Shown: piece after piece, positions 31,281 to 37,558 of the stretch
How positions within the stretch are numbered: position 1 is the first letter of the stretch
How the letters are laid out: every line of letters begins with the position of its first letter
Origin: Loktanella sp.
Lineage (GTDB): Bacteria > Pseudomonadota > Alphaproteobacteria > Rhodobacterales > Rhodobacteraceae
Direction: 5' to 3'
Assembly (NCBI GenBank): GCA_017390475.1
Contig: JAFPBO010000002.1
Span: 1-64,000 of the forward strand
Length of the DNA stretch: 64,000 nucleotides
Translations under genes and position numbers: made by a program
The notes under the pieces: generated by a model
What the model saw: only the letters and a program-made list of their open reading frames with translations
What the model was told of the DNA's origin: nothing
The model's database searches: none

Positions 31281-31378
31281 CGTAAAAGTTGTGCGTGACC
31301 GGATCGTGACTTGACCTTTGCCCTTGCGGACGGGATACCAAGCCCCTGTCGCAAATGTAGGGCAAAGAGGCGTTTTTG

Positions 31379-34180
31379 ATGATCGACTACCCCAAAGGCA
31401 ATGTTCCCGCACAAATCGCCCTTGCCTTGCAGGACCATGCCGACAGGATCGCGATCAAAGATGCCGATCTGACGCTGACCTATGGGCAATTGGCCGATTG
31501 CATCGCAAGGCTGGGTGAAAACCTTCCCCGCGGGGAAGTTGCCGTCTTCGGCAAACCGACGGCGCTGTTTGGTGCGGCAGTGATGGCCTGCGTGGTTCTG
31601 GGGCGGCCTTTCGTGCATCTGGACCCGGCGATGCCGGATGAGGTGCTGCGCAATATCCTGTCGGAACTGGATATTGATGTGGTGCTGCTGTCGGAGGCTG
31701 CGAGGCCCGGCCAGATCCCTGACCATTGCCGCCACGTCGATGTCGCGCAGGTCATCGCGGGCTTTGCCGATGCGCCCGCCGCACCCGTCCAAGCCGCCGC
31801 TGTCGCGGCTGATGACATCATTTATCTGGTCGCCACATCCGGCACGACGGGCAAGCCCAAATGCATCCCGGTGACCCATGACGCGGCCTATCTGTCGTAT
31901 ATGTGGCGCGACGCTTATACGCCCTATGCGCCGGGTGATGTGGTGGGTGTCTATATCTTTGCGATCTGGGAAATGTTCCGGCCCTTGCGCGATGGTGCCG
32001 CGGTGTGTTTTCCGCGCATGGCGGAGCTGATGAACCCCGAAGCGTTGCGTGGGTTCTTGGTCCGGCATCAGGTGACCGAGATGCTGTTCACGCCGTCGGC
32101 CATTGACAAGACGTTGCAGGGGTGGGGGGCAGGCGCGTCCGAAGGACACGCCCTACGGCGTATCATCCTGAATGGGGAGGTCGTCACCGATGATCTGGTT
32201 GCTGTGGCAGAAGATAAACTGCCCGGTGTAACTGTCTGGAACTTATATTCAATTTGTGAAACGCATGATATCTGCATGACGCAGGTTTCCGGCCAGTCTG
32301 GGCCGCGCCAGACCGGCAGTGTTGGTAAGGCGATGCCCTATCTGACGCCTGTCGTGCTGGACGATCACGATCAGCCTTGCCCGCCCGGCACGCCGGGTCT
32401 GTTGCATTTTGAGGGGCCAAGGATGCTCGGCCCCGGTTATATCAACCGGCCCGAGGAAACCGCGCTGCGGTTCCGTGAACTGAACATCGACGGGCGTGTC
32501 GCGCGGCTCTATGACACTGGCGATCAGGGCTATGTCACTGACGATGGCACGATCTTCGTGCTGGGCCGGGTGGCGCATATGCTCAAGCTGCGGGGGCATT
32601 CGATCCAGACGCGGGAATTGACGGAGTCCCTGCATGGGTTCCTGCAGTTCAGCACCGCAGTGCCTTGGGTGCAGGATGTGCCGGGGCAGGGCAAGGTGCT
32701 GGTGTTCTATTATTGCGCTGATGATGCGCAGGCGGCTGCGAACCAGCGGCAATGGGGGATAGAGGCAGGGCAAATGCGCATGCCCGCCAGCCTGTCGCAG
32801 GCGTTGCGCGCGGAATTGCCGGCCTATTGCATCCCAAGCTATCTGGTGCGGCTGGATGCACTGCCGCTGCATCCGGTGTCGGGCAAATGCGATTACAAGG
32901 CCTTGCCCGCGATTGAAGCTATGGCCGATGTGGCCGATGCCGACGTGATCCCGACAATTGCGCAGGCGGCTGCGGTGATGGGCTGTTCTGCCAGCACACT
33001 CGACCCTGATCTGTCGTTTCATGACCAAGGCGGGGATTCCCTGATGGCGGTGACCCTGCTGCTGGCGCTGGAAGAGGTTTATGGCCGCCCCGTCGATTTC
33101 GATTTCGCGCTGAATGTGCCGCTGGGCCGGTTGCATGACCTGCTGTTGGACGCAGTGCCGATGGCGCAAGCGCAAGGCCAGTTCGACCGCCCCGGTATCC
33201 TGCTGACGGGGGCGACCGGGTTTCTGGGTAGTCGCGTTCTGGCCGCCGCTGCGCGTAGTTTGCCAGAGGGCGAGGTGATCTATTGCCTGATCCGCCCCAA
33301 ACGCCGCGATCCGTTGGAACGGCTCCATGCCATTGCCACAGAGCAGGGGGTGGATTCCGCGAGACTGGTGCTGGTGCCTGCGTCGATTGACGATGAACGT
33401 TTCGCGCTGACGGACGCCGATTATGCCAGCCTTGCGCGCAACACCCGGCAGGTCATCCATTGCGCGGCGATGGTGAACCTCGCCGTGGACCGGGATCATA
33501 TGGAAAGCTGGTCCAAGGCGGGGATCAGCAATATCTTGCAATTCTGCGCCGATGCCGGGGCGGATCTGCGGTTTTCCTCCTCGACAGCGGTCTTTGCCGA
33601 TCAGGGCGGGCGCTATCCCGAAGGGCCGACCACGGCCTATCCGCAAATCTCCGGCTATGGCGCGGCCAAGGTCGCGGCGGAGGCGTTGATTGCGGAGTCA
33701 GGTGTCGATGCGGCAGTGGTGCGGCTGCCGTCGCTTTACGATCTGGGCAATCCCAATCCGAACGATATCTATGAAATCATTATGAAAGCCTGCGCGCAGA
33801 TGCAGGCGGTCCCCGAGGGCCTGACCTTCCGCATGATCGCTGTGCAGGCGGCGGCGCGGTTCCTTGCCGATCTGCCAAAGGCGGAAGGGGTGCGCTGTTT
33901 CAACCTGACGCCTGATATCTATGCGACAGCCCCTGCCATGCCGGTGCTGCCGGCGGATCAATGGCTGCGTGAAGCGCCCCTGTCCGAGGGGGAACGCGCT
34001 CTGATCAACGCTGATCTGTCTGTCTTGCAGGCGACGGCCACGCTGACCCATGACGCGGCAAGCGCGGCTTGGCAGCAGATCACAGGTGAAGTTTTTACAG
34101 CAGTTTCTGACCCCGCAGCCCTGATCAAAGCCCGGCTTGGGAGCGTTTCACATCACCATAATGACCCGGCATTGACCTGA
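31379..34180 (+). CDS. Adenylation-carrier-thioester reductase enzyme
   Basis: A 933-residue NRPS-like enzyme with three domains and no condensation domain. Residues 1-490 are an AMP-forming adenylation domain (ATSGTTGKPK near 153; IWEMF; YDTGDQGY; the late Lys in HPVSGKCDYKAL). About 530-590 is a carrier domain with the phosphopantetheine Ser in DQGGDSL near 551. About 605-933 is a thioester reductase (GATGFLGSRV; YGAAK as the Tyr-Lys pair). It should activate an acid, hold it as a thioester and release an aldehyde or alcohol. In the A4 region the Asp that binds an alpha-amino group is replaced by Ile (YIFAIWEMF against FDxSVWEMF), which suggests a carboxylic, aryl or keto acid substrate. 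A palindromic repeat is embedded in frame (31518-31540). ATG at 31379 has CAAAGAGG before it. Aminoadipate reductase and carboxylic acid reductase are the nearest named types. Confidence 0.88.
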   Translation: MIDYPKGNVPAQIALALQDHADRIAIKDADLTLTYGQLADCIARLGENLPRGEVAVFGKPTALFGAAVMACVVLGRPFVHLDPAMPDEVLRNILSELDIDVVLLSEAARPGQIPDHCRHVDVAQVIAGFADAPAAPVQAAAVAADDIIYLVATSGTTGKPKCIPVTHDAAYLSYMWRDAYTPYAPGDVVGVYIFAIWEMFRPLRDGAAVCFPRMAELMNPEALRGFLVRHQVTEMLFTPSAIDKTLQGWGAGASEGHALRRIILNGEVVTDDLVAVAEDKLPGVTVWNLYSICETHDICMTQVSGQSGPRQTGSVGKAMPYLTPVVLDDHDQPCPPGTPGLLHFEGPRMLGPGYINRPEETALRFRELNIDGRVARLYDTGDQGYVTDDGTIFVLGRVAHMLKLRGHSIQTRELTESLHGFLQFSTAVPWVQDVPGQGKVLVFYYCADDAQAAANQRQWGIEAGQMRMPASLSQALRAELPAYCIPSYLVRLDALPLHPVSGKCDYKALPAIEAMADVADADVIPTIAQAAAVMGCSASTLDPDLSFHDQGGDSLMAVTLLLALEEVYGRPVDFDFALNVPLGRLHDLLLDAVPMAQAQGQFDRPGILLTGATGFLGSRVLAAAARSLPEGEVIYCLIRPKRRDPLERLHAIATEQGVDSARLVLVPASIDDERFALTDADYASLARNTRQVIHCAAMVNLAVDRDHMESWSKAGISNILQFCADAGADLRFSSSTAVFADQGGRYPEGPTTAYPQISGYGAAKVAAEALIAESGVDAAVVRLPSLYDLGNPNPNDIYEIIMKACAQMQAVPEGLTFRMIAVQAAARFLADLPKAEGVRCFNLTPDIYATAPAMPVLPADQWLREAPLSEGERALINADLSVLQATATLTHDAASAAWQQITGEVFTAVSDPAALIKARLGSVSHHHNDPALT
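31518..31540. repeat. SacII-centred palindrome inside a coding sequence
   Basis: The sequence AACCTTCCCCGCGGGGAAG, the same repeat as at 8792-8848 and 25137-25212, lies within the adenylation domain gene. It is read in frame as ENLPRGEVA and keeps the frame open, so the element has been accommodated in a surface loop near residues 47-54 of the enzyme. Confidence 0.8.
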
Positions 34181-35430: not shown

Positions 35431-36276
35431 ATGACCATCGCCATCACAGGTGCCACCGGCCAATTGGGCCGTCTGGCCATCGCCCATCTGAAAACCCTGA
35501 CCGATCCTGCGCAGATCATCGCCCTGGCGCGTGATCCGGGTAAAGCGGCTGATCTGGGTGTCGCTGCCCGCGCCTTTGACTATACCGCGCCCGAGACGAT
35601 GGCAGAGGCGTTGCAGGGCGTCACCGTGTTGGCGCTGATTTCTTCCAATGATTTCAACGACCGTGTGGGTCAGCACCGCAATGTGATCAACGCGGCCAAA
35701 GCCGCAGGGGTCGGGCGGATCGTCTATACCTCGATTATGCAGGCCGATTCCTCGCCCATGCTGATCGCCGCCGATCACAAGGCGACAGAAGCAGCGATCC
35801 ATGAGGCAGGGCTGACCGCCACGATCCTGCGCAATGGCTGGTATAGCGAAAACTGGACCGGCAATCTGGCCGGTGCGATCAGCGCCGGGGCGATGATCGG
35901 TGCGGCGGGCGATGCGACATTCACCCCTGCAACCCGTGCCGATTATGCCGAGGCCTTGGCCGTGGTGGCAGCAGGTGATGGCCATGCCGGGCAGGTCTAT
36001 GAACTGGGTGGGGATGAGGTGATCACGCTGGCGGATATCGCCGCCGAAGTCTCGCGTCAGACCGGCAAGGATATCCCCTATAACAACCTGCCGGGCGATG
36101 TGTATCAGGGTATTCTGGAAAGTTTCGGCCTGCCTGCCGGTTTTGCCAGCGTTCTGGTCGACGTGGATGTAAAGGCGGGCGGGGGGTGGCTGGCTGATAC
36201 GTCCGGCACCCTGCGCAATTTGCTGGGTCGTCCGACGGTGCCGATGTCAGAGGCTGTGCGTGCCGCGCTTGCCTGA
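35431..36276 (+). CDS. qorB: NAD(P)H quinone oxidoreductase-like SDR (QorB type)
   Basis: A 281-residue NmrA-like atypical SDR. The Rossmann loop AITGATGQLGRL and the central LALISSNDFNDRVGQHRNVI and RNGWYSENW motifs match E. coli QorB (YtfG), a quinone reductase using NADPH. Divergent from the HxlR-type regulator. Its last 30 bases overlap the end of the convergent methyltransferase gene. ATG at 35431. Confidence 0.88.
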   Translation: MTIAITGATGQLGRLAIAHLKTLTDPAQIIALARDPGKAADLGVAARAFDYTAPETMAEALQGVTVLALISSNDFNDRVGQHRNVINAAKAAGVGRIVYTSIMQADSSPMLIAADHKATEAAIHEAGLTATILRNGWYSENWTGNLAGAISAGAMIGAAGDATFTPATRADYAEALAVVAAGDGHAGQVYELGGDEVITLADIAAEVSRQTGKDIPYNNLPGDVYQGILESFGLPAGFASVLVDVDVKAGGGWLADTSGTLRNLLGRPTVPMSEAVRAALA

Positions 36277-36864
36277 GGTAAAGACCGCCATCTGGCTGGC
36301 CCCACCCAGCACCGGATGCGCACCTGCGATATCATGAAAGGCGGCGGTATAGCCCGCCGCCTTGGCCGCGCGCCCGCACCATTGGCGGAACCGCGCGCGG
36401 TCCCATTCGAAACGGTGATCGGGATGGCGCATCCGGTGCGCAGGCACCCCCAGCAGTGGATTGAATTCCGCATTGGGCGTGGTGATGATGATCGTCTGGG
36501 GGCGCAGCACGGTGAACAAGGCCCGTTCAAGGCGTGACAGATCGCCGGGGTCGATATGTTCGATGGTTTCCAGCAGCACGGCGCAATCATAGCCCCCCAG
36601 ATCACGTGACGGTTCGGTCATCGAAGCATGGCGGACATCAACCTTGCCTGCCTGCACATCCAGCCGCTGCAGCTTTGCCCGCAAACGATCAAGTGACGCC
36701 GTGCAGATATCCAACCCCACCAGTTCTGTCAGTTCCGGCATGGCGGCAAGACGAACGAACAGATCGCCATCGCCACATCCCAGATCAAGCACGCGGGCTG
36801 CACCGCTGTCGCGGATCGCGGTCAGGACGGCTTGCAGGCGGTCTTCATGCAGGTAGCTGGTCAT
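36247..36864 (-). CDS. hen1: HEN1-type RNA 3'-terminal 2'-O-methyltransferase
   Basis: A 205-residue SAM-dependent methyltransferase. The SAM loop VLDLGCGDGDL is at residues 25-35. The HEN1 metal motif Glu99-x-x-Glu102-His103 (LLETIEHI) and the downstream His150 of RHPDHRFEW are present, as is TTPNAEFN (128-135). These residues hold the divalent metal and the 3'-terminal ribose in HEN1 proteins and are rare outside the family. Unlike the Hen1 of bacterial Pnkp-Hen1 RNA repair operons, the protein is only the methyltransferase domain, and no Pnkp gene is in the window. It lies alone on the minus strand, its end overlapping the convergent qorB. The RNA substrate is unknown. Confidence 0.85.
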   Translation of the reverse strand: MTSYLHEDRLQAVLTAIRDSGAARVLDLGCGDGDLFVRLAAMPELTELVGLDICTASLDRLRAKLQRLDVQAGKVDVRHASMTEPSRDLGGYDCAVLLETIEHIDPGDLSRLERALFTVLRPQTIIITTPNAEFNPLLGVPAHRMRHPDHRFEWDRARFRQWCGRAAKAAGYTAAFHDIAGAHPVLGGASQMAVFTSGKRGTHSL

Positions 36865-37096
36865 GCGGTTTCTATCGTGGAGCGGGGGGCAAAAGGCAAT
36901 CGCTGTGGCCCTGGCGCGTCAGGTCAGGCAAACATGCTGCACCGACGCTAGGCAAGTGGAACGATAACTGCCACATTGCGTTGCAATAGTTAACAAACGC
37001 GGTCGGCTTTTTCCGACATCTTTGCTTTTTGCAGAAAAATTCTATATATCTCATAGAGAACGAACAATAAAACCCCGATCAAGGGTGGAGAAATTA

Positions 37097-37558
37097 ATGA
37101 CAACAGCGATGCTCAGGACATGGACAGATTATGTCCTGCCGTTTTTCAGACGCCCGGCCCGGCTTCAGGTTGCCGCTTTATGCTATCGTCAGGGCAAGGC
37201 CGGTAAAAAAGAAGTGCTGTTGATCACGTCACGCGGCACAGGCCGTTGGATCATTCCCAAAGGCTGGCCGATTGATGGCAAGGACGCGGCTGGTGCCGCC
37301 TTGCAGGAAGCCTGGGAAGAAGCAGGCGTGCGCTCTGGCCGTGTCATCAGCGGTGCGGTTGGTGTGTTCAGTTACGAAAAAGAGCTTTCGACAGGATTAC
37401 CGGTGCAGGTGGAAACACTGGTCTTTGCTGTCGAAGTCAGCAAGCTGGACGCCGATTACCCCGAAGTCACCGAGCGCCGCCGCAAATGGGTTAGCCCGAT
37501 GAAGGCCGCGAATATGGTGCAGGAACCGGAATTGCGGCAAATCCTCCGGGATATGTAA
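37097..37558 (+). CDS. Nudix hydrolase
   Basis: A 153-residue Nudix protein. The Nudix box is seen as GWPIDGKDAAGAALQEAWEE followed by AGV, with the REUXEE-type core AxQEAWEEAG. ITSRGTGRWIIPKGWP and the overall length resemble the diphosphoinositol polyphosphate phosphohydrolase/Ap(n)A type of alphaproteobacteria. ATG at 37097 has GGTGGAG before it. It lies 18 bases before a PiT gene, so a role in polyphosphate or phosphorylated nucleotide turnover is possible. Confidence 0.85.
   Translation: MTTAMLRTWTDYVLPFFRRPARLQVAALCYRQGKAGKKEVLLITSRGTGRWIIPKGWPIDGKDAAGAALQEAWEEAGVRSGRVISGAVGVFSYEKELSTGLPVQVETLVFAVEVSKLDADYPEVTERRRKWVSPMKAANMVQEPELRQILRDM

Follow-up and report, generated by a model that had tools for sequence, protein, structure and literature searches.

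What does a HEN1-type methyltransferase do in a bacterium where no RNA-repair gene stands beside it? The question is raised by a 64,000-nucleotide stretch of a Loktanella sp. genome (assembly GCA_017390475.1, contig JAFPBO010000002.1, positions 1 to 64,000; hereafter the window), in which a gene, hen1, encodes the methyltransferase domain alone. The classical system is described as having its Pnkp and Hen1 genes always in the same operon (PMC4411300), and the literature that we found presents 3'-terminal 2'-O-methylation by bacterial Hen1 solely as one of the steps in RNA repair. As reported in the 2006 analysis, bacterial HEN1 proteins were found only in Firmicutes, Cyanobacteria and Actinobacteria, and characterisation of the short forms was called for (PMC1397878). 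Among the titles and abstract openings listed in a literature search, with most subscription journals outside its scope, there was no account of a stand-alone proteobacterial HEN1 or of the c3-c1-hen1 operon described below.

A preliminary description, made from the letters of the window alone, had placed a HEN1-type open reading frame at 36247..36864. The gene was recovered at exactly these coordinates on the minus strand, and every motif named for its product is present (the SAM loop, E99-x-x-E102-H103, TTPNAEFN at residues 128-135 and RHPDHRFEW). The neighbours, given earlier as a quinone reductase and a Nudix hydrolase, were confirmed as genes for an NmrA-type NAD(P)-binding protein and a NUDIX protein. 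The features are as follows:

35431..36276, plus strand: NmrA-like NAD(P)-binding protein, convergent with hen1 and overlapping its 3' end by 30 nt
36247..36864, minus strand: stand-alone HEN1-type methyltransferase gene (hen1), 205 aa, ATG start
36403..36429, minus strand: RHPDHRFEW (residues 146-154) with the fourth metal ligand H150 inside, aligned with the histidine of HENMT1 DHKFEW
36556..36570, minus strand: metal ligands E99-T-I-E102-H103, invariant in 32/32 and mapping to Arabidopsis E796/E799/H800
36763..36789, minus strand: SAM-binding loop LDLGCGDGD, residues 26-34 (VLDLGCGDGD being 25-34)
37022..37558, plus strand: NUDIX hydrolase, divergent neighbour of hen1; the ATG at 37097 may be its real start

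The genome (99.99% complete) holds one copy of hen1, and in an alignment of 35 stand-alone proteins, the window protein included, at least 90% share its M1. The Yoonia relatives L002 and L003 likewise have an NmrA-like gene downstream of hen1 and convergent with it (profile check for L002 only); upstream of hen1 there is a DoxX gene in L002 and a gene at the same place in L003. NUDIX was rejected as a partner of hen1, none being recognised by eye among 25 neighbour groups. Elsewhere in the window, positions 31376-34180 encode a carboxylic-acid-reductase-like protein of 934 aa (AMP-binding, PP-binding and NAD_binding_4), whose gene is convergent with an SDR gene and overlaps it by 28 nt.

Among the NCBIfam models, the bacterial Hen1 model TIGR04074 matched the window protein with 195.2 bits (E=1.4e-57) over model positions 265-461 of 462, a coverage which corresponds to the C-terminal methyltransferase half of bacterial Hen1 only. 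The family cut-off of 340 bits applies to the whole protein with its N- and C-terminal halves and is not reached at 195 bits. The next model, UbiG, scored 34.5 bits against its cut-off of 103, and Pfam gave generic methyltransferase domains only. UbiG/COG2227 O-methyltransferases form a related Rossmann-fold family, but at this low score, and UbiG is not known to have the HEN1 metal tetrad. The preliminary description had named a placement with small-molecule methyltransferases, by structure or profile, as a refutation of its reading; the profiles place the protein with Hen1 instead. Its best solved relative is the Anabaena Hen1 methyltransferase (3jwh, E=5e-40), followed by human HENMT1 (5wy0, 8.7e-27) and Arabidopsis HEN1 (3htx, 1.1e-21). 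All seven solved sequences at E <=1e-10 are bacterial Hen1, human HENMT1 or Arabidopsis HEN1, including two bacterial Hen1 structures deposited as 'Methyltransferase type 12'. The earlier assignment to the HEN1 catalytic domain is borne out by these matches, which are not due to chance, and, judged by homology, the window protein is a genuine member of this family.

The metal site has been described as E796, E799, H800 and H860 in Arabidopsis HEN1 and as E132, E135, H136 and H181 in human HENMT1 (PMC10781085). Alignment with HENMT1 puts the human ligands on E99, E102, H103 and H150 of the window protein, and these four residues are invariant in all 32 proteins of a mixed alignment (28 stand-alone, 4 full-length) as well as in 35/35 stand-alone proteins, window included. 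The triad Glu99/Glu102/His103 proposed before is therefore correct in its residues and incomplete as a site, the metal site being a tetrad with H150. Full-length repair-type Hen1 and the stand-alone proteins share the complete metal site, and also most residues of the HRFEW region. The window SAM loop is the equivalent of the DxGCG motif, which is conserved in HEN1 proteins (PMC10781085).

No match to the Hen1 N-terminal half (profile built from 11 full-length proteins) was found in any window frame of at least 100 aa or, with the same profile, in any frame of 78 stand-alone loci. FXPP, a substrate motif of eukaryotic HEN1, occurs in 0/35 stand-alone proteins and in 0/32 proteins of the mixed alignment, which includes four full-length bacterial Hen1. 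The window protein has 24 K+R and 25 D+E, that is, no net positive charge, and no RNA-binding extension is recognisable in it. Animal HENMT1/DmHen1 and plant HEN1 carry the same catalytic domain and are reported to act on the 3'-terminal ribose of RNA (PMC10781085, PMC8220740); unlike these, the window protein has neither FXPP nor RNA-binding domains, and its host has no known small-RNA pathway.

Scanning of the order gave matches in 87/149 genomes at E 1e-3, of which ten exceeded 130 bits and the remainder stayed at about 33 bits or less, the level that would be expected of generic methyltransferases. Six of the ten are stand-alone proteins (G000, G118, G048, G141, G123 and G067). The other four are full-length Hen1, about 470 aa long, and two of these (G003, G040) belong to the window's own genus. 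In the class, 12/385 genomes matched at 1e-20, six with stand-alone and six with full-length proteins as split by open-frame length. The best 80 of 538 confirmed loci, which are the nearest relatives of the window protein and not a fair sample, contain 78 stand-alone loci and two full-length ones (L079, L081); the 78 come mostly from Alphaproteobacteria and also from Thiobacillus, another Hydrogenophilales, Halochromatium and two Desulfuromonadales. A free-standing system in roseobacters had been suggested: the free-standing domain holds, and the restriction to roseobacters fits poorly, given 6/149 genomes of the order and the wider hosts.

A tree of 97 rows was built and rooted at the midpoint only; L072 (the second copy in the genome of L004), L085 (identical to L020), L088 (identical to L059) and repeat loci were left out. 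The 11 full-length Hen1 domains lie on one side of a branch (100/96). Four stand-alone rows (Thiobacillus/Hydrogenophilales and Desulfuromonadales) fall on this same side with weaker support (95/79, 92/51), so that the tree does not prove the stand-alone proteins to be one clade. The window protein groups with the Yoonia proteins L002 and L003 (100/99), within a set of 37 rows (99/96).

The preliminary description saw no evident partner for the enzyme, which is right for the window's genome and does not extend to the family. In 33/78 stand-alone loci (a profile count among nearest relatives), a gene that we call c1 lies directly upstream of hen1 on the same strand, sometimes with a further gene, c3. 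The c1 gene encodes a class I methyltransferase (Methyltransf_23) with a Zn-ribbon (CxxC...CxxC near the N terminus) whose four cysteines are invariant in 14/14. Its stop overlaps the hen1 start by 4 nt in 31 of the 33 loci, L023 and L040 having a gap, and the start context of hen1 behind c1 is ATGA in 25/33 and GTGA or TTGA in the rest. Partial c1 matches only were seen in L022, L028 and L042, in the last case because the contig ends there. No fusion of hen1 to c1 or c3 in one reading frame was found; the extended open frames at L029, L035 and L072 look like spurious extensions in GC-rich DNA.

The c3 gene precedes c1 in 11 of the 33 c1-hen1 loci and stands directly upstream of hen1, with no c1 between, in L034, L044, L066 and L076. 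The best solved matches of c1 are UbiG-type enzymes, and no specific family was reached for it, only general methyltransferase models and low-scoring hits under the cut-off; nor did the profile search reach a specific family for c3. The c3 profile matches polyamine aminopropyltransferases weakly (7xif, 32.8 bits). Aminopropyltransferases have a GGGDGG cofactor loop and a DxxD catalytic motif; c3 is probably not one of them, because GGLGLG and DIDH stand in place of these motifs in 15/15 proteins.

Association between c1 and stand-alone hen1 was then assessed genome by genome. In the order, c1 occurs in 2/149 genomes, both times adjoining stand-alone hen1, which is present in six genomes (p 0.0014). 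In the class it occurs in 12/385 genomes, namely 5/6 with stand-alone hen1 against 7/379 others (Fisher 7e-8); counted by genus the association is 3/4 (p 1.4e-4), three of the five genomes being of one genus. Since c1 and hen1 are on different contigs in 4/5 of the co-occurring class genomes, the association exceeds shared synteny. In G539, G543 and G564, c1 and c3 stand side by side with hen1 elsewhere in the genome, and G328 and G240, two genomes in which hen1 was not matched, carry c3-c1 pairs as well. Such pairs without hen1 (L138, 3512-4953; L139, 3833-5253) are themselves an uncharacterised unit, and the neighbours of the L139 pair resemble tpiA, secG and pyrG by eye. Over 49 genomes, c3 scored above 350 bits in 9, or in 17 when weaker relatives at about 90-106 bits are counted.

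Neither c1 nor c3 was found in the window's genome by profile searches. Among 43 genomes, mostly those in which hen1 has no adjacent c1, c1 was not found in 36, including the own genome and both Yoonia genomes, and lay elsewhere in 7, with no completeness figures for the genomes reached through loci. The search itself took in 44 genomes, which represent 40 of the 45 stand-alone loci that have no c1 beside hen1 (all but L031, L037, L053, L060 and L064), the own genome and three other genomes of the order; leaving out the genome of L004, in which L072 also lies, gives the 43. Accordingly, c1 is not obligatory for stand-alone hen1. In the 37-row set that holds the window protein, c1 adjoins hen1 in 24, and on the tree the c1 label requires 5 changes against 13.9 when shuffled. 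The window's lineage probably lost its c1 neighbour and kept hen1, because it sits inside this mostly c1-linked group yet has neither c1 nor c3. One MAG (G531) has two stand-alone hen1 copies, L004 and L072, with c1 adjoining one and absent beside the other.

We favour, with a probability of about 0.6, the explanation that the window protein is a metal-dependent HEN1-type ribose 2'-O-methyltransferase from a proteobacterial set that works without Pnkp repair machinery. The metal would coordinate both hydroxyls, 2'- and 3'-OH, of the last ribose at a mature RNA end that carries a 3'-OH, and methylation of the 2'-O would protect or mark this end. Where relatives have c1, this protein with its ribbon of four cysteines probably acts on the same substrate or at an adjacent step; the HEN1 enzyme of the window's lineage would do without c1. 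A terminal ribose diol is the predicted substrate because the invariant tetrad binds the 2'- and 3'-OH in HEN1, and the target is most likely the 3'-terminal ribose of an RNA, outside repair. Activity is reported to need no more than the C-terminal domain in plant HEN1 and the methyltransferase region in HENMT1 (PMC10781085), which means that an enzyme can work as a bare domain. On the other side, the lack of basic charge and of the FXPP motif would count against strong RNA binding, and the HEN1 catalytic domain was nearest to small-molecule methyltransferases in the 2006 analysis (PMC1397878), which counts against an RNA substrate.

HEN1 enzymes that have shed the repair machinery and have another operon partner suggest a purpose other than repair for which RNA 3' ends are marked or protected in some bacteria. 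More tentatively, and in our view possible though not probable, c3, c1 and stand-alone HEN1 might together form a proteobacterial system for modifying RNA 3' ends, in which a defined class of bacterial RNAs is methylated outside repair, a bacterial counterpart of small-RNA end protection, with the window's lineage running on HEN1 alone. The idea is testable with concrete genes (hen1, c1 and c3) and named strains, among them Yoonia vestfoldensis SKA53 carrying hen1 alone, and Salinihabitans flavidus DSM 27842 and the isolate Lutimaribacter EGI FJ00013 (L006), both carrying c3-c1-hen1.

As the substrate, an RNA 3' end demands the fewest assumptions, and its main rival is a metabolite. The HEN1 site would then be re-used, with c1 and c3, to methylate a vicinal diol on a small molecule such as a nucleoside, a nucleotide sugar or another metabolite. 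With its aminopropyltransferase-like c3 profile and the matches of c1 to UbiG-type enzymes, the operon does resemble a set of SAM-fold enzymes, the missing RNA-binding extension and basic charge of the window protein point the same way, and other substrates have been raised for non-plant HEN1 proteins (PMC1397878). We nevertheless regard a metabolite as an unlikely substrate, as repair-type and stand-alone proteins have the metal site and most of the HRFEW region in common. The CxxC...CxxC ribbon of c1 also speaks against a metabolite, such ribbons being common in nucleic-acid enzymes.

Less probable still is a repair enzyme whose kinase/phosphatase and ligase are unlinked, as in the Pnkp1-Rnl-Hen1 system of Capnocytophaga gingivalis. 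There too, hen1 does not adjoin Pnkp; this Hen1 is about 20% identical to AvaHen1, and Rnl and Pnkp1 are described as an unlinked operon elsewhere in the genome (PMC4411300). The Hen1 of the Pnkp/Hen1 cassette (TIGR04074; 3jwg, 3jwh) likewise has the same catalytic domain, SAM loop and metal ligands as the window protein, which is 39-47% identical to four aligned full-length bacterial Hen1. The window protein differs from the cassette in having no N-terminal half, which speaks against repair, in lying outside the full-length tree group and in its genome having no Pnkp over cut-off. The absence of Pnkp, ligase and RtcB genes near the lone methyltransferase domain, as noted in the preliminary description, extends to the genome for Pnkp over cut-off, PNKP-type ligase and RtcB. 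The whole-genome profile search for Pnkp that it had proposed gave one 33-bit stretch only, against a cut-off of 750, and no RtcB was found in the own genome (RtcB control positive in 9/14), both of which argue against repair. Nor was a PNKP-type ligase found: the PNKP_ligase model, which is not Rnl-specific, gave no match in the own genome (control positive in 1/14) and none in 16 further genomes with stand-alone hen1, in a search that did not extend to T4-type RNA ligases and kinases. Over the 19 genomes searched (17 stand-alone and 2 full-length, L006 not among them), PNKP_ligase was found in 0/17 genomes with stand-alone hen1 versus 2/2 with full-length Hen1 (>500 bits), and in L079 and L081 full-length hen1 is followed by a Pnkp gene (1323 and 1163 bits, respectively). 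The stand-alone HEN1 proteins are decoupled from Pnkp-type repair.

Selection on the gene was estimated by the Nei-Gojobori method. Between the window hen1 and seven relatives, dN/dS is 0.13-0.19; dS ranges from 0.7 to 2.1, so that for pairs further apart the ratio is approximate. The two Yoonia copies, also without adjacent c1, give 0.15 and 0.13. The orphan hen1 copy is maintained under purifying selection. That it is a functionless remnant left after the loss of c1, as the missing c1 and c3 in a group with 24/37 c1-linked members could suggest, is very improbable in view of the intact open reading frame, the invariant active site and these two Yoonia ratios.

Other origins and roles were considered for hen1. 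A phage origin was rejected: there were two remote phage matches (29% identity), and no match was confirmed among viral contigs. Plasmids gave 23 matching records, and of the 20 listed 14 are annotated as Hen1; a plasmid source was rejected, the nearest among the matches listed being a Comamonas plasmid protein of 46% identity annotated as a methyltransferase only. PADLOC gave a single match for the window protein (mad2, 49.5 bits, residues 4-133), which looks like the generic methyltransferase fold, and in PHROGs nothing but methyltransferase families was matched, none above 33 bits; a role in anti-phage defence was set aside.

A survey of neighbour groups covered 78 of 85 loci, those where the gene caller found hen1. 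UvrD-like helicase genes adjoin hen1 or lie close downstream in L015, L027 and L005 (family checked for L015 only). A universal stress protein (Usp) gene is near hen1 in 10/78 loci, one to four genes downstream (L009, L014, L016, L021, L022, L023, L033, L041, L070 and L071), and a SulP-type transporter gene in 9/78, the two being mostly paired; Pfam confirmed three Usp and one SulP, and the counts stand without a background rate. This recurrence spans Rhodobacterales to Thiobacillus, and SulP is also found near hen1, on the upstream side, in L045.
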